NCBI GenBank assembly: GCA_947498125.1
Contig: CANMJH010000001.1
Coordinates: forward strand, 1,054,001 to 1,118,000
Direction: 5' to 3'
Length of the DNA stretch: 64,000 nt
Origin: an uncultured Nioella sp.
GTDB taxonomy: Bacteria > Pseudomonadota > Alphaproteobacteria > Rhodobacterales > Rhodobacteraceae
The translations under genes were made by a program, and so were the position numbers. Positions 2,232-37,530 of this stretch are shown here, piece by piece. The notes below the pieces were generated by a model. The model did no database searches. It worked only from the letters and a program-made list of their open reading frames with translations, and was not told the DNA's origin. Numbering within the stretch: the first letter of the stretch is position 1; every line of letters begins with the position of its first letter.

Positions 2232-3266
2232 CTAGGTATCGATCCGTTTGGCGAATTCGCATTCCGCGCCATCGGTGACGGCTTTGTAGCGCTCTAAACG
2301 TGACGAGCATTTCTCTCGGCTCTTCAGCAGATGCGCGAGAAGTCGTAGCTTACATTCCTCAGAGCGGCGGCGTTTTAATGCGCCCAGCACACCAAGATGT
2401 TCTTCGATAAAGGGGTCTTCATCGCCAACCGGGACCTCTTCGGTTGCCAAGACGTGTTTGGATAAAACGAGCCCCGCCTTGACCGACCTCAACGCCGTTA
2501 GCCCCGGCGCATTTTTTGCGTAACCCATCAGGTCGCGATGCAGCACCACTTCGAGATCGTCCAACTCTCGGCTCGTGACATTCGGCAAGCGGCTCAGCGC
2601 GTCTTCGTGCATTGCAATTGCCCGATCCAGAACGTCCATCGGAATGTGGATCGTGGCTTGTTCCAGCAATTTGGGCTCAAGCCATGACCGCACGTCGAAC
2701 AGCATCTCCAGCCGCTCGCAATCCATTTTCAAGGCGATCCATTGCCCGCCGGGGCGCCGTGCAACCAGCCCGTTGGTTTCCAGTTCGCGCAAGGAATCTT
2801 CCAGCGCGCTTCGCCCCACATTGTAATAGTCCTGCGCGGCCCGGATACTGATCCGCCACGCACCATGCACGGACAGACGCGAGATGTGACGCTCCAGATC
2901 TTCCAACAGCGGCGTCGGGGTATCAGTAGTTTTAAGCGCCTCTTTCAGGGACGCGATGCAGGTCGGGTAGTCTGTCAGGCGGCTGGTGGCACTTGTCTCC
3001 TCTGCACCCGTAACAAATCCGCGTGTGGGAAGCGGCGCAATCAATCCATACTCGACGAGGGTGTGCAGGGCCTGCCGCGCCGGGGTTCTGCTCACGTTAA
3101 AGACCTGTGCAAGCATACTTTCGTTGATCGCGACGGCGTCGGGAATTGTTTGAGCGCGGATTTCTGAGGCAATCGCATCCGCCAGCGCAAGATAAAGCGA
3201 CGGGTCGGACACATCTGGAATAGCCTGCCCGATCTCACTTGTATTGGCAGAGGTCTGCGATCTCAC
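2232..3266 (-). CDS. GntR-family transcriptional regulator, likely controlling the divergent sugar-acid operon
   Basis: A 344-residue protein with an N-terminal GntR winged helix (about residues 25-95, including NESMLAQVFNVSRTPARQAL and the wing LIAPLPTRGFV). A second, weaker winged-helix-like segment (about 130-195: YYNVGRSALEDSLRELETNGLVARR) is followed by an all-helical, FCD-like effector region. This is longer than the usual 230-250 residues because the HTH appears duplicated. The start is GTG: an in-frame TAA lies two codons upstream, and GGGAG sits 8 bases before the GTG. It is transcribed away from the UxaA-TRAP-sulfatase operon across 246 bases, the standard arrangement for a local regulator; a sugar acid or keto-deoxy intermediate is the likely effector (inference). 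Confidence 0.82.
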   Translation of the reverse strand: MRSQTSANTSEIGQAIPDVSDPSLYLALADAIASEIRAQTIPDAVAINESMLAQVFNVSRTPARQALHTLVEYGLIAPLPTRGFVTGAEETSATSRLTDYPTCIASLKEALKTTDTPTPLLEDLERHISRLSVHGAWRISIRAAQDYYNVGRSALEDSLRELETNGLVARRPGGQWIALKMDCERLEMLFDVRSWLEPKLLEQATIHIPMDVLDRAIAMHEDALSRLPNVTSRELDDLEVVLHRDLMGYAKNAPGLTALRSVKAGLVLSKHVLATEEVPVGDEDPFIEEHLGVLGALKRRRSEECKLRLLAHLLKSREKCSSRLERYKAVTDGAECEFAKRIDT

Positions 3267-3512: not shown

Positions 3513-5057
3513 ATGCGACACCACACCATCCTCAAGATCACTGAGGCCGATACTGTCGGTGTTGCATTGCTGACGCTGGACCCGGGCGACCGGGCTTGTG
3601 TGTCGTCAACAAATGGCGGCGTCGCGGCAGAATTTGATGTCGTCGAGCGTATCCCGCGCGGTCACAAGATCGCGCTGAGCGATATTGGCGCGGATGCCTT
3701 TGTTTATAAGTATGGACAGGTGATCGGTGTTGCGACCAACGACATTGCGCAAGGCGCGCATGTGCATAGTCATAACCTTTCGGGCGAAGGCGGGTATGAC
3801 CGCAAAAGCGCGCGGGCCGTCAGCGCGACCGAGATAGACCACGCGGCCTTGCCGGACAGCTTCATGGGATATGCCCGCCCGTCCGGCGAGGTTGGAACGC
3901 GCAACTATATCTCGCTGCTTTCCACAGTGAACTGTTCGGCCACGGTGTGCCGCGCAGTTGCCGACCATTTCAATCTGGGCGGCGGGCTGGACAAGTACGA
4001 AAACGTCGACGGGATCGTGGCCTTTACCCATGGGTTCGGCTGCGCCATCGATCCCGATGGGCTTGGCATGGCGATGCTGCAGCGCACGTTGATCGGGGCG
4101 GCCTTCAACCCCAATGTCGCGGCAACCGTCGTGATCGGCCTTGGCTGCGAGACCAATCAAGCGAAATTCATGTTGGCACGTTGCGGCATCACCGAGGCAC
4201 CAACCTTGAAGAGTTTCACCATCCAAGAGGCCGGCGGCACGCGCAAATCCATTGCCAAGGCCATTGCGTTTATCGAAGGCCTACTGCCCGAAGTGAACGC
4301 AGCTGGCCGAACACCGCAGCCGGTCTCGAAAATAAAACTGGCCCTGCAATGTGGCGGATCGGATGCCTATTCCGGTATTACCGCAAACCCCGCCCTTGGG
4401 ATTGCGTCCGATATCCTGATCGCCAAAGGTGGCACCGCGATCCTGTCCGAAACCCCTGAAATCTATGGCGCCGAACATCTGCTTGCTGTGCGGGCAACGC
4501 AAGAGAACGTCGGTGAAAAGTTGTTTGGTCTGATCGACTGGTGGCGCGATTACACGGACAAAGCGGGGGCCAGCATTGAGAACAATCCTTCTTATGGGAA
4601 TAAAAAGGGTGGCCTGACCACGATTGCCGAAAAGTCCCTCGGGGCAATCGCGAAATCAGGTCAAAGCCCGCTGACCGCCGTTTATGGCTATGGCGAGCCG
4701 GTGACTGAGCCGGGCCTCGTTTTCGTGGATACGCCCGGTTACGACCCGATCTGTTCGACGGGTCAAATCGCCTCTGGCGCGACGGTCATGTGCTTTACCA
4801 CCGGGCGCGGGTCCGTATCCGGGTTCAAACCTGTCCCGACCCTCAAATTATCGACAAACACGCCAATGTATGAGGCCATGCAGGATGACATGGACGTCAA
4901 TTGCGGCACTGTTCTGGAAGGTGAGACCCTGCGGGCGGTTGGCGAACGGATCTACGCCCGCATCATCGACACTGCGTCTGGAAAGAAAACACAAAGTGAA
5001 ATCAACGGCTTCGGCGACAATGAATTTGTGCCCTGGCAACTTGGAGCAATCCTTTAG
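3513..5057 (+). CDS. UxaA-family sugar-acid dehydratase (altronate/galactarate dehydratase type)
   Basis: A 514-residue single-chain member of the altronate/galactarate dehydratase family, an iron-dependent group that removes water from aldonic or aldaric acids to give 2-keto-3-deoxy acids and that also includes sulfolactate sulfo-lyase. Residues 1-95 form the SAF domain (GVATNDIAQGAHVHSHNLS). The rest is the catalytic part, with family motifs NYISLLSTVNCSATVC, THGFGCAID, GLGCETNQ, QCGGSDAYSGI, TTGRGSVSGFKPVPTLKLST and MDVNCGT; several cysteines in these are candidate metal ligands. Length matches UxaA/GarD (about 495-525). It is the first gene of the nine-gene operon, divergent from the GntR gene. 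The substrate is not determined by sequence alone; an L-configured aldonate or a sulfonated/sulfated acid are options. Confidence 0.87.
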   Translation: MRHHTILKITEADTVGVALLTLDPGDRACVSSTNGGVAAEFDVVERIPRGHKIALSDIGADAFVYKYGQVIGVATNDIAQGAHVHSHNLSGEGGYDRKSARAVSATEIDHAALPDSFMGYARPSGEVGTRNYISLLSTVNCSATVCRAVADHFNLGGGLDKYENVDGIVAFTHGFGCAIDPDGLGMAMLQRTLIGAAFNPNVAATVVIGLGCETNQAKFMLARCGITEAPTLKSFTIQEAGGTRKSIAKAIAFIEGLLPEVNAAGRTPQPVSKIKLALQCGGSDAYSGITANPALGIASDILIAKGGTAILSETPEIYGAEHLLAVRATQENVGEKLFGLIDWWRDYTDKAGASIENNPSYGNKKGGLTTIAEKSLGAIAKSGQSPLTAVYGYGEPVTEPGLVFVDTPGYDPICSTGQIASGATVMCFTTGRGSVSGFKPVPTLKLSTNTPMYEAMQDDMDVNCGTVLEGETLRAVGERIYARIIDTASGKKTQSEINGFGDNEFVPWQLGAIL

Positions 5058-5094
5058 CCCTGCTGTAACCGAAACTTAGAAAGAGACGAAAAAG

Positions 5095-5673
5095 ATGAAA
5101 TACGACGAAATGACCGACCTGCTTGAACCGGGGTATCTGGAGCTTGAAACCGGCTACCGGATGCTGCCCGAAAGCGAGGAACTGCTGGTCGCCGTCTACA
5201 ACCGCATGATGGGCTGCAAGCACGAGTGGCTGGATCGGTGGTTTGGCCATTTCGAAACTGAGGCCGATTTCATCGAATGGCATCCTGAAGAGCACTTCAC
5301 CCACGTCTGGAACGACAAGTGGAGCAAGGGCAATTACATCGGTGCCGCCCATACCGCCAAGCAAAAGATTGGCGGGCGTCAGCCGCAGTTTTCCACGATC
5401 CACTTTGAGGATCCGTCGATCATGTTCGACATGGACAAAGTGCGCGCCGCGAATGCAACGGTTGTGTTGGCCTATGGCACGCCCGGTGAATATGGCGATA
5501 GCGACTACAAGATGACGCGCTTTGTGCACATCGCGCGCAACACCCGTTTCGGATGTGAAATCCGCAGCCGCTTCTGGGTCAAGACAACCGAAGATTTCGG
5601 TCCGCTTCTGATCGACCACTGCTTCGGTGAGTTTGGATTTGCACAGGATATCTGGAAACGGGAGTTTTCCTAA
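5095..5673 (+). CDS. DAPG-hydrolase (PhlG)-like metal-dependent hydrolase
   Basis: A 192-residue soluble protein resembling the 2,4-diacetylphloroglucinol/phloretin hydrolase group, zinc enzymes of a helix-grip fold that cleave a carbon-carbon bond beside a ring ketone. Visible family-like features are GYLELETGYRMLP at the N-terminus, WFGHF, the WHPEEH cluster (His63, His67), the acidic Glu105, and an H-x3-E pair (His175/Glu179) near the C-terminus like the His/Glu ligand pair of PhlG. It is shorter than PhlG (about 290). It lies 37 bases after the UxaA-type gene and before the TRAP genes, so it probably acts on a sugar-derived or small-acid intermediate. The reaction is unknown; family placement is from motif memory and moderately certain. 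Confidence 0.55.
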   Translation: MKYDEMTDLLEPGYLELETGYRMLPESEELLVAVYNRMMGCKHEWLDRWFGHFETEADFIEWHPEEHFTHVWNDKWSKGNYIGAAHTAKQKIGGRQPQFSTIHFEDPSIMFDMDKVRAANATVVLAYGTPGEYGDSDYKMTRFVHIARNTRFGCEIRSRFWVKTTEDFGPLLIDHCFGEFGFAQDIWKREFS

Positions 5674-5731
5674 ATCCGCGTGTGCATCGCCACCAAAACT
5701 TGAACGAGACGAATAAGGGAGGAACTAAACC

Positions 5732-6781
5732 ATGAGTAATCTAAACAAGACAGTTTTCGTACTGGGCTTGGCCGCCAGCGTTGTCGGAAGCGGGCAGGCA
5801 ATGGCGCAGGCCGAATGCGGCTCGGTTAATTTGCTGTTCAACAAATTTGTTCCGGACAGCCACGCGTTTTACACCGGTGGTATGTTGCCTTGGGCCGAAG
5901 ACGTCGAAAGCGTCACCGAAGGCCGCGTCACGGTGTCGTTCACCTCGGCCTCACTGGCACCACCGCCGCAGCAATGGTCGATGGTAACGGACGGAATTGC
6001 CGATGTCGGACTGCAAGTGAACCCGCTTGAATCTGCAAGGTTACATCTGACCAATATCGGCGGCCTGCCGTTGGTGGGCAACCTGGCCGAGGCACGTGGT
6101 GTCGCCTTGTGGCGCACGCAGCAAGAATTCTTTTCAGACGCAGGCGAATACGACGGTGTGCACCTGCTTGGTCAGTTCACGAATGCGGGCGCGGGCCTTA
6201 TTTCCAGCCGCGAAGTCCATAGCATGGACGACGTCGCAGGTATGAAGTTCTGGACAATCGGCGGCCCACCTGCCGCTGTCGTCGAGGCAATTGGCGCGGT
6301 GCCAGTACCGGCGCCGGGCGAAGAGATGTTCAGCATGTTCTCACGGGGTGTTGTCGATGGTATCGCGACCAACTGGGGGGCAATGCGGGTCTGGAACGCT
6401 TATCGCTACACCGAAGCCTATGTTGATATTCCGGGTGGTCTTTATGCCGTCGATTTCTCATTCATCATGAACCAAGATGTCTGGGACGGCATTTGCGAGA
6501 CTGATCAAGAGCTGATCATGTCAGTGTCTGGCGAAAGGATCGCGCGAAACGTTGGCGTTGAGATCGACGAATATGACATCGTTACTCAGAGCGAGCTTCC
6601 AGAGCATGAGATCATCGTCATCGAACCTGATGCCGAATTCATGGCCGGCCTGGAAGAAAGCGTCGCCTACGCTCGCGACACCTGGATGGAAAGAGCCGCA
6701 GCGCGCGGCGTCGACGGCGAAGCCGCACTTGCATACTATCTTGAGCAGGTCGCAGCCGTAACTGCCGAGGCGGGCAACTAA
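5732..6781 (+). CDS. dctP: TRAP transporter periplasmic solute-binding protein (DctP type)
   Basis: A 349-residue exported binding protein that hands substrate to the Q/M permease encoded next. A signal peptide covers about residues 1-25 (cleavage near AMAQA-E). The DctP fold is recognisable from the segments VTVSFTSASLA, GIADVGLQ and SRGVVDGIATNWGAM. Most TRAP binding proteins carry an arginine in a K-[IL]-R-[VT] strand that clamps the ligand carboxylate; here that strand reads GMKFWTIGG, with Trp in the arginine position. The ligand may therefore bind differently or lack a free carboxylate. A strong GGGAGGA ribosome site precedes the ATG. It is the third gene of the operon; dctQ follows after one base. 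Confidence 0.9.
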   Translation: MSNLNKTVFVLGLAASVVGSGQAMAQAECGSVNLLFNKFVPDSHAFYTGGMLPWAEDVESVTEGRVTVSFTSASLAPPPQQWSMVTDGIADVGLQVNPLESARLHLTNIGGLPLVGNLAEARGVALWRTQQEFFSDAGEYDGVHLLGQFTNAGAGLISSREVHSMDDVAGMKFWTIGGPPAAVVEAIGAVPVPAPGEEMFSMFSRGVVDGIATNWGAMRVWNAYRYTEAYVDIPGGLYAVDFSFIMNQDVWDGICETDQELIMSVSGERIARNVGVEIDEYDIVTQSELPEHEIIVIEPDAEFMAGLEESVAYARDTWMERAAARGVDGEAALAYYLEQVAAVTAEAGN

Positions 6782-6782
6782 G

Positions 6783-7340
6783 GTGCCCGAGACCAAGAAA
6801 AAAGGCGTTGCGCGAAAGCGCAGCGTCGTCGCACCCAACTGGTTGCTCAGTTGTCTTGAATGGATCACGGCGGTGTCCATCTTTACAATGGCAATCCTGA
6901 TTTTTTCCGATGTCGTCTTGCGATATTTCTTCAACAGTCCCCTGCGCGGGGTCTATGAGATCAATGGGATGTTGCTTGGACTTCTGACGCTGTCCTCCCT
7001 TCCGCTGATCACCGAAGAGCGAAATCACATAACGGTCGATCTGATCGACAGTTTTTTGCACGGCCGCGTTCGCTTTATCTCGCAGCTGATCATTCTGGCT
7101 TTCCAGATGGTTATGATCGGGTTCATCGCCTGGCGGATCTACGCCATCGGGATACGCGAATGGCATAGCGGCTGGGTGACTGTTGATCTTCAAATCAGCC
7201 GCGCACCTCTTTTGTTGTTCATGGCCTTTCTTGGGGCTCTCACATCCGCGTTTTTGTTGATCATGATCGTTCAGTTCCTTCGGAAAAGACTGCCTGTCAT
7301 TCCAATTGGCGGCATGAATACCGGGGCCGACGATCTATGA
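6783..7340 (+). CDS. dctQ: TRAP transporter small permease (DctQ type)
   Basis: A 185-residue inner-membrane protein with four predicted membrane segments (roughly residues 22-44, 60-75, 98-120, 140-163) and the DctQ-type motif GVYEINGMLLGLL followed by EERNHITVDLI. It forms the membrane complex with DctM for sodium-driven solute uptake. The start is GTG, one base after the dctP stop, which implies translational coupling. The basic N-terminus (KKKGVARKRS) fits a cytoplasmic tail by the positive-inside rule. The gene order P-Q-M is complete. Confidence 0.9.
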   Translation: MPETKKKGVARKRSVVAPNWLLSCLEWITAVSIFTMAILIFSDVVLRYFFNSPLRGVYEINGMLLGLLTLSSLPLITEERNHITVDLIDSFLHGRVRFISQLIILAFQMVMIGFIAWRIYAIGIREWHSGWVTVDLQISRAPLLLFMAFLGALTSAFLLIMIVQFLRKRLPVIPIGGMNTGADDL

Positions 7341-7367
7341 GATTCCTGACTTATTGAAAGTAACACT

Positions 7368-8663
7368 ATGACCGTGCTTCTTATCGGAACGATCGTTCTC
7401 TTCGTGCTTGTCTTCGCAGGATTTCCCCTTGGCTTTACCCTTTTGGTGGTGGGCGCGGGCGGTTTCGCCATGCTCAGAAGCGTGGCTGCGTCTTATTCCA
7501 TGGTATCGCAGCAGATCCTCGAAGTGGTGATGAACACCAACTTTGTGGTGTTGCCGATGTTCATCCTGATGGGGGCTTTCATCTATCGTGCCTCCCTCGC
7601 GGATGACTTGTTTGATGCCGCCAACGCGTGGCTGGGGCACTTCCGGGGTGGTCTGGCCATTGCAACGGTTGCGGCCTGTGGCGGGTTTTCGGCTGTCTCG
7701 GGCAGCTCTCTGGCGACTGTGACGACAATGGCCAAGGTGGCCACGCCGTCGATGCGGCGCAACAACTATGCGGACAGTCTGTCGGCGGGCTGCATCTCGG
7801 CCGGTGGCACGATTGGCATCCTGATCCCCCCCAGTGCCGCGATGATCATCTACGGCATTCTGACCGAACAAGACATTGCGGCGCTGTTCGCAGCCGGGCT
7901 TTTGCCGGGTCTTTTGACCATCGCACTCTATATTATTGTTATCTTGGTACTGACGACGATCTGGCCGCATCTTGGGCCATCGGTTCCTAAAACCAGCTGG
8001 CACGAGCGGTTTCAGCGCACGATCAAAATCTGGGGCATTGTCGTGCTGTTCGTCTTGATCATGGGTGGCATCAGCTTTGGGATGTTCACTCCGAACGAGG
8101 CGGGCGGAATTGGCGCTGTTGGCGCGCTTCTCTTTGCCCTTGGTCGCCGCAAGATGACATGGCCGATTTTCTTTTCATCTTTGGTTGATGCGGCCAAGAC
8201 CACGGCGATGGTGTTCAGCATCGGGATCGGGGCGCTGGTGTTCAACAATCTCGTAACGATGTCCGGCTTTTCGGGCGCGGTCGCGGCATGGCTCGAGGCT
8301 TTGCCCTTGTCACCCATGGGGATCATGGTGGTGATCGTTCTGTTCTACTTCCTGCTCGGGATGGTGGTGGACGGTCTGGCGATGATTTTCCTGACAGTTC
8401 CGGTCATCTTCCCGGTGGTCGTGGCACTGGGCATGGACCCGATCTGGTTTGGCGTCTTGCTGGTGATCGTTGTCGAGGTCAGCCTGATCACACCGCCCAT
8501 CGGTATGAATGTCTTTGTTCTGAAATCGATGCTTCCGGGTGTGTCTTTGCGTACAATCTTCACAGGCATCGCGCCGTTTCTAGTGGCAGATTTGGTGCGG
8601 ATCGTCCTTGTCATGGCCTTCCCGGGCTTTGTGCTGTTCCTGCCCAGACTGGTGTTCGGATAA
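7368..8663 (+). CDS. dctM: TRAP transporter large permease (DctM type)
   Basis: A 431-residue polytopic inner-membrane protein with about twelve hydrophobic segments, the transport subunit of the TRAP system and a member of the ion transporter superfamily. Typical DctM stretches are visible: FAGFPLGFTLLV at the N-terminus, GCISAGGTIGILIPPSAAMIIYG, FGMFTPNEAGGIGAVGALL, and VVEVSLITPPIGMNVFVL near the C-terminus. It lies 27 bases after dctQ and 18 bases before the sulfatase, so import and sulfatase action are likely co-regulated. Confidence 0.93.
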   Translation: MTVLLIGTIVLFVLVFAGFPLGFTLLVVGAGGFAMLRSVAASYSMVSQQILEVVMNTNFVVLPMFILMGAFIYRASLADDLFDAANAWLGHFRGGLAIATVAACGGFSAVSGSSLATVTTMAKVATPSMRRNNYADSLSAGCISAGGTIGILIPPSAAMIIYGILTEQDIAALFAAGLLPGLLTIALYIIVILVLTTIWPHLGPSVPKTSWHERFQRTIKIWGIVVLFVLIMGGISFGMFTPNEAGGIGAVGALLFALGRRKMTWPIFFSSLVDAAKTTAMVFSIGIGALVFNNLVTMSGFSGAVAAWLEALPLSPMGIMVVIVLFYFLLGMVVDGLAMIFLTVPVIFPVVVALGMDPIWFGVLLVIVVEVSLITPPIGMNVFVLKSMLPGVSLRTIFTGIAPFLVADLVRIVLVMAFPGFVLFLPRLVFG

Positions 8664-8681
8664 CGCCGTGGGCGCATAATC

Positions 8682-10244
8682 ATGACCAAGCAGCCGAGTT
8701 TCATCCTTTATATCACCGATCAGCACCGCGCGGATTATCTCGGCTGCTATGGCCATCCCATTCTGAAAACGCCCAATATCGATGCCTTGGCGGCCAATGG
8801 GGTGGCTCACGACCGGTTTTATGTGGCCTGTCCGGTGTGTATGCCAAACCGCGCCAGCCTTATGACATGCCGGATGCCGTCCAGCCACGGTGTGCGCATG
8901 AACGGCATTCCGCTGGCCCGCCAACATGTGACCTTCGTCGACCTGCTGCGCGAGGCGGGCTATGACACCGCCCTGATCGGCAAAAGCCATCTGCAAACGT
9001 TTTCGGGATTGCCCCCCCTTCCAAGCTTTCCAGAGGCGCGCGACGGCTATCACGAATCCGCATCCCAAGCCGTCCGCCACGATGTGACGGCGGAAAACTA
9101 CAACAGCGAAGATCCAGCGTTCTGGCGCGAGGCTGACGCCACTGTCCCCACGCCATTCTATGGCTTCGATCACGTGGAACTGGTGACCTATCACGGGGAC
9201 CGCGTCGGCGGAGATTACAAACGTTGGCTACGCAATCACCGAGCGGATGCAGACAGTCTTATCGGCGCTGAAAATCAGCTGCCGCATGATTATGCCTGCC
9301 CGCAGGCCGTGCGTACAGCAGTCCCGGCAGAGCTCTATTCAACCACCTATATCGCAGAACGGGCTGAAGCTTGGTTGCAAGGGCGCAAAGATAAGGACCG
9401 CCCGTTCTTTCTTATGGTCAGCTGGCCTGATCCGCATCACCCGTTCAACCCCCCGGGCAAATATTGGGACATGTATAACCCCGCTGAATTCCCTGTCCCC
9501 AACGCCTTCGATACGCCCGGCTGGACGCCGCCGCCCCATGTTGCTGCTGTTCGGGCCGCGCGCCATGCGGGCACTGCGAACCTTTCAGGGATGGAAGCCA
9601 TCGGATGCTCTGCGCGAGAGGCGCAAGAGGCTCAAGCCCTAACTTGCGGCATGATCACCATGATCGACGACGCCGTTGGGCGGGTGCAGACGGCTTTGGC
9701 CGCTTCGGGCAAGGCTGCAGACACGGTGACGATGTTCACGACAGATCACGGCGACCACCTTGGCGATCATCGGATGTTGTTCAAAGGGGCCGAGCACTAC
9801 GAACAAGTCACTCGCGTCCCGTTTATCTGGTCCGATCCCGGCGGCGCATCCGGCCTGCGCAGGGATGACATTGGTCAGACCTTGGATATCGGCACCACGA
9901 TCCTTGAACGCGCCCGCATTGAACCGGCGGACGGGATGCAAGGCCGCGATCTAAACACCCCAGGCCGCGAACATGCGTTTATGCAGTTTGCCGCTCAAAC
10001 CAACCTTCCTGGCTCTGATCTGCCCGCTTCGGTCTTCACGATCCGCGACGCGCGCCACCGCTTGTCGATGTTCCAAGGTGTGGAGTGGGGCGAACTCTAC
10101 GACCTGCAAACCGATCCGTCAGAATTCGAAAACCTGTGGGACGACCCGGCCCATGCCCACACACGCGCCAGCCTGATCGAGCGCCTCGCTCGCGCATCAT
10201 TCGCCCATATCGATACTGTCCCGACACCCGTGTCGCGGGCCTGA
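8682..10244 (+). CDS. Type I sulfatase, apparently cytoplasmic
   Basis: A 520-residue member of the alkaline phosphatase-like sulfatases, which hydrolyse sulfate esters using a formylglycine made from an active-site cysteine. The maturation motif C-x-P-x-R is present as CMPNR at residues 53-57, and downstream residues ASLMTCR match the family consensus. Metal-binding features are ITDQH at 11-15 and [11 protein letters not shown] in the C-terminal half, followed by the lysine in MLFKGAEHY. There is no signal peptide: the protein starts [15 protein letters not shown], directly with the first core strand. It should therefore act in the cytosol on a small sulfated compound imported by the neighbouring TRAP system. 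No anaerobic-type maturase gene is visible. A phosphonate monoester hydrolase activity is a less likely alternative. Confidence 0.87.
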
Positions 10245-10287
10245 GGACCGATATGACATCCGCAACCCACATAACAAGGCACCCCAC

Positions 10288-11463
10288 ATGACCAAAATCA
10301 AATCCGTTCGCACTCGTGTCTGGAACTGGACGGGGCCGGTTGTCCCGCCTGAGGGCAATTTTTGCACCAATGCGTCGGATACGTTGTGGATCAAAGGGGA
10401 TGCCATGGCGTCTTTTCGGTTCCACCAATGGCTGACCTGCGAGGTTGAGACCACGGACGGCACCATCGGCATCGGCAACGCGGCCTTGGCGCCCAGCATC
10501 CTAAAACCCGTCATTGACGAATGGCTCGCCCCTTTGGTGATTGGCGAGGATCCGTTCGACTACGCCTATCTGTGGGAAAAGATGTACCGCCGCACCCAAG
10601 CTTGGGGTCGCAAGGGCCTTGGCATGACGGCGATCAGCGCCGTGGACATCGCCATTTGGGATCTGATGGGCAAGCTGGTGGACAAGCCGGTGTTCAAACT
10701 GCTTGGCGGACGCACGAAAGAAGCGATCCCGGTCTATTACTCAAAGCTGTATTCCGCCCCGATCGACGTGATGCAGCGCGAGGCGCAAGAGGCGCTGGAT
10801 GCCGGACATACAGCCTTTAAAATGCGTTTCGGCTGGGGTCCCAAAGACGGCATGGCGGGGATGCGTGAGAACCTCAAACGGGTTGAATGCGTGCGCGAAG
10901 TGATCGGCTATGATACCGATCTGATGGCCGATGCCTATATGGGCTGGAACGTGGATTACACCAAGCGAATGCTGCCCAAACTGGCCCCGTTTGAGCTGCG
11001 CTGGCTAGAGGAACCGGTCATCGGCGATGACACGGCGGGTTATGCGGAACTCAACGCGATGAACATCGTCCCGATTTCGGGAGGGGAGCATGAATTTTCC
11101 ATCATGGGCTGCAAAAACCTGATCGTCGATAAAGCCGTCAGCGTGCTGCAATATGACACCAACCGCGTGGGCGGCATCACGGCGGCGCAAAAGATCAACG
11201 CTATCGCGGAAGCGCATCAATTGCCGGTCATTCCCCATGCCGGGCAGATGCATAATTACCACCTGACAATGGCCAACACCAATTGTCCCATGTCCGAATA
11301 CTTCCCCGTCTTTGACGTCGAGGTCGGCAATGAGTTGTTCTACTACATCTTCGAAGGCGATCCCGACGCCGAAAACGGCCTGCTCCAACTGGATGACGAT
11401 AAGCCAGGCTTGGGCATTTCCATCACCGATAAGCACCTGCAACATTTTGAGATCACCGAATGA
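10288..11463 (+). CDS. Enolase-superfamily sugar-acid dehydratase (L-rhamnonate/L-lyxonate dehydratase type)
   Basis: A 391-residue mandelate racemase-subgroup enzyme that removes water from an acid sugar to give a 2-keto-3-deoxy acid, using Mg2+. The barrel carries the expected ligands: Asp in [11 protein letters not shown], Glu in RWLEEP, Glu in ISGGEHE. A candidate catalytic His lies in [13 protein letters not shown], and another in the GEHE segment. The region [16 protein letters not shown] and the GEHE/PHAG pattern resemble L-rhamnonate dehydratase more than mannonate or galactonate dehydratases. The next two genes encode the later steps of an L-pentonate route, matching the L-lyxonate pathway described in Pseudomonas aeruginosa, so L-lyxonate or another L-aldonate is the favoured substrate (inference). 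Confidence 0.85.
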
Positions 11464-12368
11464 CTTATTCTGGCATCTGGCCTGTCGCGCCCACCCCGTT
11501 TCACCCCGATGGCACGCTTGATCTTGAGGGGATGAAACGCGTCCTTGATTGCCTGATCGATCAGGGCGCGGATGGTATCTGCATTCTGGCGAATTTCTCG
11601 GAGCAGTTCCTGATCTCGGACGCCGAACGCGAAGTTTTGGCGCGCCTCAGCGTCGAACATATTGCTGGCCGTGTGCCTGTGATTGTCACGATCAGCCATT
11701 ATGCGACTCAAATCGCGGTTGAGCGGGCGCAGTTTGCCAAGGATCTTGGGGCAGACATCGTGATGATGATGCCGCCCTATCACGGCGCGCTGCTCAAAGG
11801 CACGCCCGAACAATCCTTCGAGCAATTCGCCGCTGTGGGCGAGGTCGGCATCCCGATCATGGTGCAGGACGCGCCGTTGTCCGGTGTTGATCTGCCCGTG
11901 CCCCTCTTGGTGCGGATGGCGAAAGAGATTGAGGCCGTCAAACTGTTCAAGATCGAATGCCCCCGCGCCGCGAATAAGATCCGCACGTTAATTGAAAAGG
12001 GGGGCGATGCGATTGAGGCGCCCTTTGACGGCGAAGAAGCGATCACCCTGCTAGCCGACCTTGATGCAGGGGCTACAGGCTCCATGACCAGCGGCATGAT
12101 CGTTGACCAGATTAAACCGGTGATCACCAAATACCACAGCGGCGACTTAGACGGGGCCACGGCGGCCTATGGGCGCGTTGCAATGGCCATCAACCACGAA
12201 AACCGCCAATGCGGCTGGCAATCCTGTAAGGCCGCAATGGTCGAAGGCGGCGTGATCACATCCGACTTCTGCCGCCACCCGATCCCGCCGCTGCATCCGG
12301 CGATCCGCGCGCGGCTACTTGACTTGATCACCCCGCTCAACCCGCTGGTCCTGCGTTGGGGTAAGTAG
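11460..12368 (+). CDS. L-2-keto-3-deoxypentonate (arabonate/lyxonate) dehydratase, DHDPS family
   Basis: A 302-residue Schiff-base enzyme of the dihydrodipicolinate synthase/N-acetylneuraminate lyase family. It closely resembles the Azospirillum L-2-keto-3-deoxyarabonate dehydratase: shared stretches are [65 protein letters not shown] and the C-terminal NPLVLRWGK. The expected Schiff-base lysine is in VKLFKIE. The reaction is dehydration and deamination-like rearrangement of a 2-keto-3-deoxy-L-pentonate to alpha-ketoglutaric semialdehyde. Its ATG overlaps the stop of the dehydratase gene (ATGA), and the semialdehyde dehydrogenase follows, so the assignment is well supported by context. Confidence 0.88.
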
Positions 12369-12407
12369 TCCTACTTCGCCCCTATAAGAATTTCAGAAGG
12401 AAAAACA

Positions 12408-13910
12408 ATGCTCAAAGGCAAACACTTGATCGCGGGCGAATGGTTGGACAGCGACGCGTCATTCGAGAACGAACCTGTTACAGGATCCCCTGACCTCTTC
12501 GCAGCAGGAACGGTCGCCTTGGTGGACCGCGCCTGCAAAGAAGCCGAGGACGCCTTTGTCACCTACGGCTATTCCACACGCGCAGACCGCGCCACATTTC
12601 TACGTGCAATCGCCGAAGAGATTGACGCGCGCGGCGATGACATCACTGCCATGGGCGTCAAGGAAACGGGCCTGCCCGAGGGACGCCTGATTGGCGAACG
12701 TGGCCGCACCGTGGGCCAGCTTCGGCTTTTCGCGGATCATATCGAAAAGGGCGACTATCTGGATCGGCGTCATGTCGCTGGCCAACCAGAGGCGCAGCCC
12801 TTGCCCCGGCCTGACCTGCATATGATCCAGCGCCCAATCGGCCCCGTTGCCGTCTTTGGCGCATCCAACTTTCCACTGGCGTTCTCAACCGCTGGCGGCG
12901 ACACTGCCGCCGCATTGGCAGCGGGATGTACGGTTGTGGTCAAAGGCCATTCGGCACATCCGGGCGTTGCCGATATCGTCGCGCAAGCCATTGATGCAGC
13001 GCGAAAAAAATGCGGCCTGCATCCTGGCGTCTTCAGCCAAGTGCAAGGCGGCAACCGGCAAGTGGGGCAAGCGATTGTCCAGCACCCGTTGATCAAGGCC
13101 GTCGGGTTTACAGGGTCGCTTGGTGGCGGCCGGGCGCTGTTCGATCTATGTGCGGCGCGCCCTGATCCGATCCCGTTCTTTGGTGAACTTGGGTCGGTCA
13201 ATCCGATGTTCGTGCTGGACGGCGCTCTGGCCAATCGCGCCGATGCAATCGCAAAGGGTTGGGCGGCGTCGCTTACGATGGGTGCCGGACAATTCTGCAC
13301 CAATCCCGGCGTGGCCGTCGTGACGGCGGGTTCAGACGCCGGAACCTTCATTGATGCAGCGCGGACCGCTTTGGAAGCTGTTGGCGCGCAGCCAATGTTA
13401 ACCGCCGGCATCGCGTCGGCGTTTCATCAAGGGCGCGACAGGTTCGCGAATAGCGGCGACGTGGACGTTGTGCTTTCAACCACCTGCACGGACCGTACTG
13501 CCACGCCCTACCTGTTTGCAACCACGGGCGCGGCATGGCTGGCCAATGAAGACCTTGGCGAAGAGGTGTTTGGCCCACTTGGGCTGGTGGTTGTGGTCAA
13601 CGACGTAGATGAACGCCTGGCCATCGCGCGGTCACTGAAAGGCCAGTTGACGGCGACCCTGCATCTAGACAGCGAAGATACCAAAGCCGCGCAAGACATT
13701 GTGCCGGTTCTGGAACGCAAAGTCGGGCGACTTCTTGCGAACGGGTATCCAACCGGCGTCGATGTATCGGACGCGATGGTGCATGGCGGGCCTTATCCCG
13801 CCTCCACCAATTTCGGAGCAACCTCCGTCGGCACATTGTCAATTCGCCGGTTTCTTCGCCCGGTTTGTTATCAGGATATGCCAGCCGCTCTCTTGCCGCA
13901 GGACCTTTGA
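12408..13910 (+). CDS. Alpha-ketoglutaric semialdehyde (2,5-dioxovalerate) dehydrogenase
   Basis: A 500-residue NAD(P)-dependent aldehyde dehydrogenase of the alpha-ketoglutaric semialdehyde dehydrogenase group. Diagnostic segments are FGASNFPLAFSTAGGDTAAAL (coenzyme-binding region), VVVKGHSAHPG, the general-base Glu in FFGELGSVNPMF, and the catalytic Cys in GAGQFCTNPG. It would convert the semialdehyde made by the preceding enzyme to 2-oxoglutarate, feeding the TCA cycle. An AGAAGGA ribosome site lies 7 bases upstream of the ATG. It is the last gene of the operon; the next 250 bases have no gene and no clear intrinsic terminator. Confidence 0.9.
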   Translation: MLKGKHLIAGEWLDSDASFENEPVTGSPDLFAAGTVALVDRACKEAEDAFVTYGYSTRADRATFLRAIAEEIDARGDDITAMGVKETGLPEGRLIGERGRTVGQLRLFADHIEKGDYLDRRHVAGQPEAQPLPRPDLHMIQRPIGPVAVFGASNFPLAFSTAGGDTAAALAAGCTVVVKGHSAHPGVADIVAQAIDAARKKCGLHPGVFSQVQGGNRQVGQAIVQHPLIKAVGFTGSLGGGRALFDLCAARPDPIPFFGELGSVNPMFVLDGALANRADAIAKGWAASLTMGAGQFCTNPGVAVVTAGSDAGTFIDAARTALEAVGAQPMLTAGIASAFHQGRDRFANSGDVDVVLSTTCTDRTATPYLFATTGAAWLANEDLGEEVFGPLGLVVVVNDVDERLAIARSLKGQLTATLHLDSEDTKAAQDIVPVLERKVGRLLANGYPTGVDVSDAMVHGGPYPASTNFGATSVGTLSIRRFLRPVCYQDMPAALLPQDL

Positions 13911-33379: not shown

Positions 33380-34357
33380 ATGAAACTGTCTTTGCCTGCA
33401 TCTATCATTACCGTTTCCACCCTGCTCGCCGGGATGGCGAGTGCGGACACGGTCACACTGCGCCTCGGGCATACCGGTGCGCCAACCCACCACTATCAAA
33501 CCATCTCGGAACTTTTCGCTGATACCGTCAGCGAGCGTTCGAATGGCGAGATTCAAATCGACGTTTACCCCGCCGACCAGCTGGGCCGCCAACTTGAAGC
33601 GGTCGAAGGCACCATGCTTGGCACGCAAGATATTTTTCTGGTCTCTGACACGGTTTTGTCCAACTGGGTTCCGGATATGGGCATCTTGAACCTACCCTTC
33701 TTGTTCTCATCCTTGGATGATGTTCACGAAGTGCTGGAAGGGCCTGTGGGCGACCAGCTTGAGGCGCGGATGGAAGGCACTGGCGCTGTTGTGATCGGAT
33801 GGTGGATGGGCGGTCTGCGCAACATCACCAATAACGAGCAACCGATCATGCACCCATCGGATCTTGAGGGCGTCACCATCCGCGTTCCCGAAGGTGAGGT
33901 CTTTGTAGAAACTTTCCGAGCAATGGGCGCTAACCCTGTCGTAATCTCATTCGGAGAGCTGTATTCGGCATTGCAACTGGGCACCGCAGACGCACAGGAA
34001 AACCCGCCTGCGCATATCCTGACCCAGCGGTTTTATGAAGTTCAGGCCTATACCTCGCGGACGGCGCATATCTATCTGGGCTCACCCCTGATCATGAACG
34101 AAGCGCTCTTGGACTCGCTGTCGGAAGAGCACCGCCAAATCCTGCTGGAGACCGCAACAGAAATGGCGGCGGTTCATCTGGAAATGGTGAACGATCTGGA
34201 AGATGCGCAATGGGCAGAACTGGCCGAGCTTGGGAACCAAATCAACGACGTTGATATTGCCCCCTTCCAAGAAGCCACGGCCCCTGTCATTGAAATGTTC
34301 AGTGAAACACTGGATGCAGGTATCATCGCCGAGATTCAGGCGACGTTAGCTGACTAA
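33380..34357 (+). CDS. dctP: TRAP transporter periplasmic solute-binding protein (second system)
   Basis: A 325-residue exported DctP-type binding protein. The signal peptide is about residues 1-22 (cleavage near MASA-D). The carboxylate-clamping arginine is present in GVTIRVPEG, and family segments QLGRQLEAVEGTMLGTQDIF and LYSALQLGTADAQENPP follow. The ligand is therefore probably a carboxylate, perhaps one bearing an amide, given the amidase at the end of the operon (inference). It is divergent from the LysR gene; dctQ starts 51 bases downstream. Confidence 0.92.
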   Translation: MKLSLPASIITVSTLLAGMASADTVTLRLGHTGAPTHHYQTISELFADTVSERSNGEIQIDVYPADQLGRQLEAVEGTMLGTQDIFLVSDTVLSNWVPDMGILNLPFLFSSLDDVHEVLEGPVGDQLEARMEGTGAVVIGWWMGGLRNITNNEQPIMHPSDLEGVTIRVPEGEVFVETFRAMGANPVVISFGELYSALQLGTADAQENPPAHILTQRFYEVQAYTSRTAHIYLGSPLIMNEALLDSLSEEHRQILLETATEMAAVHLEMVNDLEDAQWAELAELGNQINDVDIAPFQEATAPVIEMFSETLDAGIIAEIQATLAD

Positions 34358-34408
34358 TCCAATCTGGCCCGCAACGTCCCTGGTTGCGGGCCAGCCAAAG
34401 GGCATCCC

Positions 34409-34882
34409 ATGAAAATCTTTGATTTTTTAGAGACATTTGTGAAGATCGTCGCCGGCGTGTGCTTGTTTGCGGTTTTTGCGTTGGTCACGGTGCAAGTTGC
34501 CAGTCGCTTTATCTTCAACTCCTCGGTTGCGGCTGCCAGTGAGCTTTCGATTTACGCGATGATCTGGACGGTGTTTCTGGGGGCTGCGGTTGCGTTCAGG
34601 TCCAATAGCCACATCGCGATGGACATCTTAAAGAACCGTTTTCCCGCGCGGATCATGCCTATTGCAGATGGCGTAATCTTCCTGCTTTTGGCCGGTTTTT
34701 TGTGTCTTATCGCCACGGAAGGGTTCGACCTGTCTATGCGAGCCATGCGGCAGACGTCTCCAGCCTCAAAAATTCCGGTGGGCTACATAACAATGGCCAT
34801 TCCCGTTGGCTCAATTCTTGCGTTGGTTTTCCTGTGTGAATGGCAGGCGCGACAGCTCCATAAGGCGAGAAACCGTGACTGA
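34409..34882 (+). CDS. dctQ: TRAP transporter small permease (second system)
   Basis: A 157-residue protein with four membrane segments (about residues 10-32, 46-64, 86-106, 127-148). The DctQ-type signature includes FNSSVAAASELSIYAMIWTVFLGAAVAFRSNSHIAMD. It overlaps the start of dctM by 8 bases, so the two membrane subunits are translated together. Confidence 0.9.
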   Translation: MKIFDFLETFVKIVAGVCLFAVFALVTVQVASRFIFNSSVAAASELSIYAMIWTVFLGAAVAFRSNSHIAMDILKNRFPARIMPIADGVIFLLLAGFLCLIATEGFDLSMRAMRQTSPASKIPVGYITMAIPVGSILALVFLCEWQARQLHKARNRD

Positions 34883-36137
34883 GATTCTCTTTATCGCATT
34901 GTTTGTTTTGCTGTTGCTTGGCGTTCCGGTTGCTTTTTCACTTGGAATCGCATCTGTCGTTGCACTTCATTTTGCCAGCCCCATTCCACTTATCATTATC
35001 CCGCAAAAACTGTTCAATGGGCTTAACGCTTTCCCCTTTCTTGCCATTCCGCTGTTCCTTTTGGCGGGGAATATTATGGCGGCTGCGCAAATATCCGAGC
35101 GGTTGGTCAAATTGGCCGGCCTCTTTTTGGGGCGGTATCCGGGAGGACTGGCGCAGATGTCGACAGGTGCATCAGCGTTCTTTGGAGCGATCTCAGGCTC
35201 GGCCCCTGCCACCACGTCGGCCATTGGTGCCATTGTCATCCCTTCCATGAAAAGCCGGGGCTACGCGCCAGCCTTTGCAGGCGCAGTTGTCGCCTCATCC
35301 GGCGCGCTTGGGCTGATCATTCCGCCCAGCCTGACGATGGTTATTTATGGAACGATCGCCGATGTTTCGATCGGTGATCTCTTCATTGCGGGCATTCTGC
35401 CGGGGATCTGCATCGCTTTCGCACTGGGCGCTGTGAATTACCTTTTGGCCAAACGGAACGGGCTGGCGGGTGAAGCGCCCGGACCGGATGTGAATGCGGG
35501 TAAAGTCATTGCCGAAAGCAGTTTGGCGCTGATCATGCCAGCCATTATTCTCGGGGGCATTTATGGCGGTGTGTTTACCCCAACAGAATCCGCCGCGATT
35601 GCCTGTTTGTACGGCCTCATAATCGGCCTGTTTGTCTATCGGACAATCACCATCAAATCGCTTGGACCAATTTTTGTTGATACGGCAATTAGTTCGGCGA
35701 TTGTGATGTACCTGATGGGCACAGCAAATGCATTTTCCTATATCATCACAGCCGAGCAGGTGCCGCAGGCCGTCGCCGCCTCATTCCTTGAGTTAAGCTC
35801 GAACCCGACCCTGATCATGTTCATGATCCTGGCCCTTCTGCTGATTGCCGGAACCTTTTTGGACAACGTTGCGGCTCTTGTCCTTTTGGTGCCGACATTG
35901 GGCACTCTCATCACCGCACTTGGGATCGACCCGATCTATTTCGGAGTTTTCACAATCATCGCCTTGGCCGTTGGCAATTTCACGCCTCCGGTCGGCTTGA
36001 ACCTGTTCATAGCCGCGCGCCTGTCAGGATCGCGGATGGAAGATATCTCAAAAAGCGCCTTACCCTATATCGGGGCCTATCTGTTCGTTCTTGTGGTGCT
36101 GATCCTCTTCCCGCAATTCATCACAATGTTCGTCTAG
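34875..36137 (+). CDS. dctM: TRAP transporter large permease (second system)
   Basis: A 420-residue polytopic membrane subunit with the DctM blocks VPVAFSLGIASVVAL, FFGAISGSAPATTSAIGAIVIPSM, SSGALGLIIPPSLTMVIYG and IALAVGNFTPPVGLNLFIAA. The open frame begins further left, but the GTG at 34875, overlapping the dctQ stop and preceded by AAGGCGAG, gives the standard N-terminus with a hydrophobic first helix. The amidase gene follows after 34 bases. Confidence 0.92.
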   Translation: MTEILFIALFVLLLLGVPVAFSLGIASVVALHFASPIPLIIIPQKLFNGLNAFPFLAIPLFLLAGNIMAAAQISERLVKLAGLFLGRYPGGLAQMSTGASAFFGAISGSAPATTSAIGAIVIPSMKSRGYAPAFAGAVVASSGALGLIIPPSLTMVIYGTIADVSIGDLFIAGILPGICIAFALGAVNYLLAKRNGLAGEAPGPDVNAGKVIAESSLALIMPAIILGGIYGGVFTPTESAAIACLYGLIIGLFVYRTITIKSLGPIFVDTAISSAIVMYLMGTANAFSYIITAEQVPQAVAASFLELSSNPTLIMFMILALLLIAGTFLDNVAALVLLVPTLGTLITALGIDPIYFGVFTIIALAVGNFTPPVGLNLFIAARLSGSRMEDISKSALPYIGAYLFVLVVLILFPQFITMFV

Positions 36138-36171
36138 ATACGGGCCAATAACAAGAAATCGGAGCTGATTT

Positions 36172-37530
36172 GTGACCATCGATTTGACGGGCAAAACCGC
36201 ATCAATCCTGGCGGCGCAGCTTGCGTCGGGTGACCTGACATCAGAGGAGTTGGTAAAGTCCTGCCTGTCAGCGATCGCCGCCCTTGGCGACCCTGCGATC
36301 TTCATCACGCTGATGGGTGACACGGCACTGACTGCCGCACGCGCAAGTGACGCAAGACGACGGGCCGGAAGGCCGCTCAGCGCGTGGGACGGCATCCCTG
36401 TGGCTTGGAAGGATCTGGTGGATATTCCGGGCACATCTACAACGGCAGGCAGTGCGGTTTACAAAGATGCAACACCGCCTGCCAAAGCCGCCAAAATCTA
36501 CGACAATTGCGAAAAAGCCGGGCTGATTTGCATCGGAAAAACCAACCTGTCTGAATTTGCCTATTCGGGTCTCGGTTTGAACCCACATTATGGAACGCCG
36601 GTGAACCCGCATTCTGGGCATGTCGATCTGGCTCCGGGTGGGTCATCCGCGGGGTCTGCCGTTGCCGTTGCCGCCAATCTGGTGCCGCTTGCTGTAGGAA
36701 CAGACACCGCCGGGTCGGTCCGCGTGCCCGCGTCATTTTGTGGGATATCGGGCTACAAATCCAGCCAGAGCCATTACGACAAGACCGGAATAGCGCCCCT
36801 TTCGACGAGCTTGGATTCCGTTGGTACCTTCGCGCATTCGGTCGATGACATCATCCAGTTTGACGCAATCCTGCGCGACGTTGACCTGCCGCCCCGGCCC
36901 GACACATACGCCGAACACCCAAACATCGTTATTCCGAAAGATATCGTTATGGAGGGATTGGACACAGAGGTTTTGGCCAGCTTCGATCAGCTCCTAGGGC
37001 GGCTCGATGCCGCTGGATACAAAATCGAACACCGCGCCTTTCCGATTTTCACGGTAGTCGCAGAGCTTTTTGCAAAGCACGGGACGCTCACCGTGGCCGA
37101 GGCGGCGACGATCCACAAAGACCTGCTGGCCAGCGAAGACGCTAATGCCATGGACCGGCGCGTTTTGGACCGCATAAAAACAGCAAGCCAATTCTCGGCG
37201 CAGGATTACATACAGCTTCAATGGGAGCGAACCCGTCTGGAGGGTGAGGTCTCAAGCAGCCTCGGCTCGGACCTTTTGTTGTTTCCAACCGTACCTATCA
37301 CGGCGCCACCCATTGCGGAACTGGACGCCGATGACGAGCTCTTTGTGCGCACCAACCTGCTAGCGCTGAGAAACACAATGCTCGGTAATTACCTTGGTAT
37401 GCCCGGCGTTAATCTAACCATCGGAAATACTAAAAGCGGATCGCCGATCGGCGCGCTATTTTCGATGGCGACGGGAATGGATCTAGCCCTACTGCGCCAC
37501 TGCGATGAGATCGAGCGCCAGATTGGGTAG
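36172..37530 (+). CDS. Amidase (amidase-signature family)
   Basis: A 452-residue amidase-signature hydrolase that cleaves a carbon-nitrogen amide bond. The Ser-cisSer-Lys triad is visible: Lys80 in AWKDLVDIPG, cis-Ser158 in APGGSSAGSA, and nucleophile Ser182 in TDTAGSVRVPA. There is no signal peptide, so it acts in the cytosol. The start is GTG with GGAG about 10 bases upstream. Being last in the TRAP operon, it probably hydrolyses the imported compound; candidates include ureido, carbamoyl or N-acyl acids. It is not GatA: gatC and gatB are absent and the C-terminal half differs. Confidence 0.9.
   Translation: MTIDLTGKTASILAAQLASGDLTSEELVKSCLSAIAALGDPAIFITLMGDTALTAARASDARRRAGRPLSAWDGIPVAWKDLVDIPGTSTTAGSAVYKDATPPAKAAKIYDNCEKAGLICIGKTNLSEFAYSGLGLNPHYGTPVNPHSGHVDLAPGGSSAGSAVAVAANLVPLAVGTDTAGSVRVPASFCGISGYKSSQSHYDKTGIAPLSTSLDSVGTFAHSVDDIIQFDAILRDVDLPPRPDTYAEHPNIVIPKDIVMEGLDTEVLASFDQLLGRLDAAGYKIEHRAFPIFTVVAELFAKHGTLTVAEAATIHKDLLASEDANAMDRRVLDRIKTASQFSAQDYIQLQWERTRLEGEVSSSLGSDLLLFPTVPITAPPIAELDADDELFVRTNLLALRNTMLGNYLGMPGVNLTIGNTKSGSPIGALFSMATGMDLALLRHCDEIERQIG

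Follow-up and report, generated by a model that had tools for sequence, protein, structure and literature searches.

The window examined here, a 64,000-nucleotide stretch from an uncultured Nioella sp., carries an operon that probably joins TRAP import, cytosolic desulfation and a pentonate route, with a sulfated C5 aldonate or its sulfated sugar counterpart as the most likely substrate. Nine same-strand genes run from 3513 to 13910 (+) with intergenic gaps of at most 58 bases, and their contiguity and short spacing are best explained by a single catabolic operon. A GntR/FCD-type transcriptional regulator is encoded divergently from it (2232..3266, minus strand; Pfam GntR 6.9e-13, FCD 4.5e-08) and is its presumed regulator; a scan for promoters and terminators returned counts at or near the shuffled level. 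All three DctP-type TRAP subunits are present by Pfam, namely the substrate-binding protein DctP, with a signal peptide recognized by eye (5732..6781, +; PF03480, 4.7e-19), the small permease DctQ (6783..7340, +; PF04290, 5.7e-18) and the large permease DctM (7368..8663, +; PF06808, 3.8e-90). The sulfatase gene follows (8682..10244, +), and then three genes of a sugar-acid pathway. The operon also encodes a small PhlG-domain (DAPG-hydrolase-like) protein (5095..5673, +; Pfam DAPG_hydrolase 1.9e-25), for which no homologue at E<=1e-40 was found in 295 other genomes of the family.

In the route that we propose, DctPQM would import a small sulfate ester intact, and the cytosolic sulfatase, activated by the formylglycine-generating enzyme (FGE) of the genome, would free the sulfate. 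The desulfated sugar acid would then be dehydrated by an enolase-type dehydratase, and a UxaA-type enzyme may act on a different epimer or form. A second dehydration, by the L-2-keto-3-deoxypentonate dehydratase, would yield alpha-ketoglutarate semialdehyde, which the aldehyde dehydrogenase would oxidize to alpha-ketoglutarate, as in the non-phosphorylative pentonate route. We infer both that the TRAP cargo is the substrate of the sulfatase and which sugar it carries, the latter from the neighbouring genes. Trp174 of DctP, in place of the customary carboxylate anchor, speaks against a plain sugar acid bound in the usual manner, so that a standard sugar acid is a less certain ligand. A sulfated neutral sugar is another possible ligand of DctP, although the operon (3513-13910) contains no aldose or sugar dehydrogenase for a neutral sugar. 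To our knowledge, sulfated pentonates are not established seawater metabolites.

The original prediction described a sulfatase that has no signal peptide, opens directly with its core strand, carries an intact CMPNR maturation site and lies 18 bases behind a TRAP permease gene, and each of these features is borne out. DctM ends at 8663 and the ATG of the sulfatase is at 8682, leaving 18 bases between them. Read outward from this ATG, the in-frame codons are ATC ATA CGC GGG CGT CGC, followed by the TAA at 8661 that closes the frame and is the stop codon of DctM itself. None of these six codons is ATG, GTG or TTG, so a signal peptide gained from an upstream start, an objection named at the outset, is excluded. 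AlphaFold, run with 24 aligned sequences, gives a model (mean pLDDT 82, pTM 0.88) in which residues 6-14 form the first core strand, and the same start point is shared by 24 homologues in the alignment. On this sequence, the 520-aa protein is full-length, lacks a signal peptide and is predicted to be cytosolic.

The protein matches the Pfam families Sulfatase (E=4.5e-42) and SGSH_C (6.9e-14), its CxPxR motif reads CMPNR (residues 53-57), and the metal and catalytic set is complete (D13, Q14, C53, N74, K101, H103, H252/H253, D355, H356 and K368). All ten mappable active-site residues agree with those of SmCS and SpAS1, the residue set of choline sulfatase and SpAS1 being that given in PMC5870055. 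The genome also encodes the FGE that the original prediction had proposed looking for (G000:C1:169449-170276), whose match to formylglycine-generating enzymes of solved structure stands at 2.9e-84 and whose cysteine pair lies in LCHISYC. Motif, active-site residues and FGE thus confirm, at the level of sequence, the assignment of the ORF as an FGly-dependent (S1) sulfatase.

This sulfatase is one of 13 in the genome, about 12 of which look cytosolic when their sequences are inspected by eye; the sole signal-like N-terminus recognized in this way belongs to L091:9293-10594. Most of the cytosolic-looking sulfatases lie in importer clusters (TRAP, TTT or ABC), and one sibling is encoded 5 bases behind the second DctPQM of the same genome (L088). 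These siblings, together with the conserved importer coupling described below, support the earlier proposal of import followed by cytosolic desulfation, both steps of which we infer. Within this genome, such a pairing of importer and cytosolic-looking sulfatase is the rule rather than an exception.

The pathway enzymes point to the type of molecule that would be consumed. Downstream of the sulfatase lies an enolase-superfamily (mandelate racemase subgroup) sugar-acid dehydratase (10288..11463, +; PDB 3stp E=4.6e-234), probably of the L-lyxonate dehydratase type. The entries 3stp, 3ssz and 3sqs, all matched at about 1e-230, carry either the label putative galactonate dehydratase or no name in their depositions, and we take this group to be the L-lyxonate dehydratases of Ghasempur et al. 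2014. The residues given there are reportedly R179/H316, and the window enzyme has a KxR motif (K178-M-R180) and the catalytic H317, one residue off that numbering. The next gene encodes a DHDPS-superfamily 2-keto-3-deoxypentonate dehydratase with the Schiff-base Lys164 (11460..12368, +), which matches the L-2-keto-3-deoxyarabonate dehydratase 3fkk at 8.4e-105, compared with 3.4e-25 for the next other family. The last gene encodes an aldehyde dehydrogenase (12408..13910, +; PDB 3v4c E=7.7e-221; GQFC catalytic cysteine C297) that resembles the 3v4c group, presumably type III alpha-ketoglutarate-semialdehyde dehydrogenases. The PDB matches behind these assignments are full-length, and the presence of these enzyme families together indicates a route from a C5 aldonate to alpha-ketoglutarate. 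At the other end of the operon, the UxaA/GarD-superfamily sugar-acid dehydratase (SAF + GD_AH; 3513..5057, +; Pfam GD_AH_C 7.4e-99) has C141, C177, C212 and C280. Four cysteines are conserved in UxaA/GarD dehydratases except in sulfolactate sulfo-lyase (PMC6336799), and a sulfo-lyase identity was rejected because all four iron-binding cysteines are present.

Of 20 relatives with examined gene neighbourhoods, most have an orthologue of the enolase-type dehydratase at 72-87% identity. It usually adjoins the deoxypentonate dehydratase, in many cases together with the aldehyde dehydrogenase, and no sulfatase lies in any of the 20 neighbourhoods. Neither these neighbourhoods nor those of the sulfatase relatives yielded a relative in which sulfatase and pentonate module occur together, so the link between them rests on one operon. 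The occurrence of the module elsewhere without a sulfatase suggests that the importer and the sulfatase were added to an existing sugar-acid pathway, and this is what the operon looks like.

The coupling of the sulfatase to an importer extends well beyond the window, and comparable pairs of importer and sulfatase are found in many bacteria. Of 80 sulfatase relatives (48-68% identity), 53 are immediately preceded on their strand by a TRAP permease, with a spacing that ranges from -17 to +48 bases and has a median of 8; these are fused TRAP permeases, usually with a TAXI binding protein before them. In one further relative (L227), the TRAP genes lie directly downstream of the sulfatase. In an evenly drawn sample of 296 genomes of the family, a TRAP gene is directly adjacent at 23 of 35 homologous loci. 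With about 18 TRAP large permeases in the genome, a random gene would be expected after one in roughly 0.5% of cases, so both fractions place the coupling beyond chance. In a tree of 55 proteins, the window sulfatase branches from within the clade linked to TAXI-TRAP (three successive forks with support of 97/84, 99/89 and 100/98), which makes the pairing with DctPQM probably a later one. The window sulfatase would then probably have switched its importer partner from TAXI-TRAP to DctPQM.

The neighbours of the sulfatase relatives are varied catabolic genes, including SdsA-type alkylsulfatases and aromatic-acid genes, and none of the relatives lies near the pentonate module. This variety is what would be expected if a different sulfate ester, such as a sulfated phenolic acid or an alkyl sulfate, were imported and cleaved in the cytosol for sulfur scavenging, the pentonate pathway being unrelated and sharing only the operon. 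We regard this explanation as unlikely, although it is the most serious competitor, as it fits poorly with a contiguous operon with short gaps, in which no sulfate-starvation gene was seen and the other enzymes form a coherent pathway to alpha-ketoglutarate.

A scan of a viral collection found no relatives, and a plasmid collection held only relatives of 44-46% identity, in three records. In many loci (L195-L224), an SdsA-type metallo-beta-lactamase alkylsulfatase lies near a TAXI-TRAP and an S1 sulfatase, bringing two unrelated sulfatase classes together. Within the literature covered, a search for TRAP with sulfatase did not find the pairing described.

The binding protein is unexpected in one residue. 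A carboxylate-binding Arg is present in 96.8% of DctP proteins (PMC4646407); the window DctP has Trp174 where this residue (Arg147 of SiaP) is expected, the Arg being a typical rather than a strictly defining feature. At this position, the 13 DctP proteins of the genome comprise 8 with Arg, 3 with Ala, Phe or Gly, and 2 with Trp, and these last two are exactly those encoded with sulfatases. The nearest homologues follow the same division, with a sulfatase link in 8/8 of the Trp type and no link in 2/2 of the Arg type. Overall, 12 of 15 Trp-type relatives are sulfatase-linked, and Arg-type homologues almost never are. The Trp-type proteins form one clade (support 99/95), so these links do not represent independent events. 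In a fresh sample of 40 homologues, a sulfatase lies beside 2/5 of the Trp-type and 0/35 of the Arg-type proteins (Fisher P = 0.013); with only two of five linked, a general rule that Trp means sulfatase is not absolute. Conversely, the DctP proteins of L081 and L082 are sulfatase-coupled yet keep the Arg, in loci with aromatic-acid-type genes. Taken together, the clade, the fresh sample and these counter-examples indicate that Trp marks a mostly sulfatase-linked TRAP clade. In one of the three Trp-type exceptions (L325:6311-8257), a sulfotransferase-domain protein adjoins instead of a sulfatase.

Could the TRAP system import an ordinary, unsulfated sugar acid, with the substrate of the sulfatase made inside the cell? 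The pentonate module does pair elsewhere with other importers and no sulfatase. However, the window DctP belongs to the mostly sulfatase-linked Trp-type clade, from which nearby Arg-type homologues differ in this respect. We therefore consider an unsulfated cargo improbable, and retain import of the sulfate ester itself as the preferred reading. As a broader and more tentative proposal, on which we would not yet wager, this TRAP clade, in which Trp replaces Arg in the binding protein, may be dedicated to sulfate esters, its transporters being inherited jointly with cytosolic sulfatases from two or more subfamilies. With the TAXI-TRAP-linked sulfatases included, it might then constitute a route of importing first and desulfating inside for Alphaproteobacteria that use small sulfated organics as carbon, including the sulfated pentonate pathway of the window operon.

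By sequence and fold, the sulfatase falls in the arylsulfatase/phosphonate monoester hydrolase (AS/PMH) subgroup, its best matches being PMHs and the SpAS1/SpAS2 enzymes of Silicibacter pomeroyi. In SpAS1 numbering, K101 and H103 characterize sulfatases, and Tyr with Thr/Asp at these positions characterizes PMHs (PMC5488252). That the enzyme is a PMH or a phosphodiesterase rather than a sulfatase, a possibility raised by the PMHs among its closest solved folds (2w8s and 2vqr; TM 0.75-0.77) and by the promiscuity that the same source describes for the superfamily, is very improbable and was rejected, because the window enzyme has K101 and H103 in place of Tyr and Thr/Asp, both are kept in 24/24 aligned homologues, and its NCBIfam PehA score is 193.7 against a cut-off of 900. 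The phosphonate-ester activity named as a danger to the original prediction is thus countered, at the level of sequence, by the sulfatase signature. The sulfatase has the K101/H103 pair in common with the dimeric arylsulfatases SpAS1 and SpAS2 (4upi, 4upl), with 24-26% identity over the whole fold, but belongs to a different subfamily.

Import followed by cytosolic desulfation is already known for choline sulfate, with choline-O-sulfate uptake and a cytosolic choline sulfatase (BetT/BetC, SmCS; PMC5870055, PMC10132767). As in BetT/BetC, an importer gene adjoins the FGly sulfatase in the window, and the Lys/His/Asn/Asp-His active site is the same (PMC5870055, PMC10132767). In contrast, the window importer is a TRAP system rather than BetT, the downstream genes belong to a sugar-acid pathway rather than to betaine synthesis, and a choline sulfatase identity is not supported, the NCBIfam equivalog scoring 187.8 bits against a cut-off of 433. 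The remaining genes share with the non-phosphorylative pentonate pathway (L-arabinonate/L-lyxonate to alpha-ketoglutarate) three reaction types and the same enzyme families (PMC6336799), but here a sulfatase precedes the route and its importer is a TRAP system of the Trp type. The P, Q and M subunits are encoded in order, as in SiaPQM and IsePQM. Sulfonate uptake by TRAP is known for IseP (PMC11668362); unlike the window DctP with its Trp, the isethionate-binding IseP keeps its arginines. What appears to be new is the combination of a sulfatase paired with TRAP, a pentonate pathway and a binding protein of the Trp type.

Discussion of marine sulfatases usually centres on the exported degradation of polysaccharides. 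One bloom study assigned sulfatase genes mainly to Bacteroidetes, alongside TonB-dependent transporters, and TRAP genes to Alphaproteobacteria (PMC4829426). The loci described here unite both themes: in many alphaproteobacteria, predicted cytosolic sulfatases are coupled to TRAP importers. If their substrates are small sulfated sugars or acids, this would be a distinct, self-contained (non-sharing) use of sulfated carbon. For a TRAP binding protein without the customary carboxylate anchor, the operon also suggests a class of ligands that can be tested.

Other loci of the same genome, and of the window, show further arrangements. In the window itself, a second TRAP system (33380-37530) consists of a DctP with the usual Arg, a small and a large permease, and then an amidase. 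Elsewhere, a TAXI-TRAP and a cytosolic sulfatase lie beside a homogentisate dioxygenase, a fumarylacetoacetase and an aromatic-ring monooxygenase (L089:6931-19097), and L090:9836-17249 has a TAXI-TRAP and a sulfatase with a similar gene set; both are candidate routes for sulfated phenolic acids. In L092:8812-13301, the tripartite tricarboxylate transporter genes for TctC, TctB and TctA are directly followed by a sulfatase without a signal peptide. Finally, L085:6866-19900 (C1:129866-142900) contains an ABC sugar importer between two CxPxR sulfatases, a third sulfatase-like gene, an aldo-keto reductase, an amidohydrolase-family lactonase candidate and a UxaA-type dehydratase. This gene content suggests a parallel pathway, whose substrate would be a sulfated deoxysugar, for example fucose.
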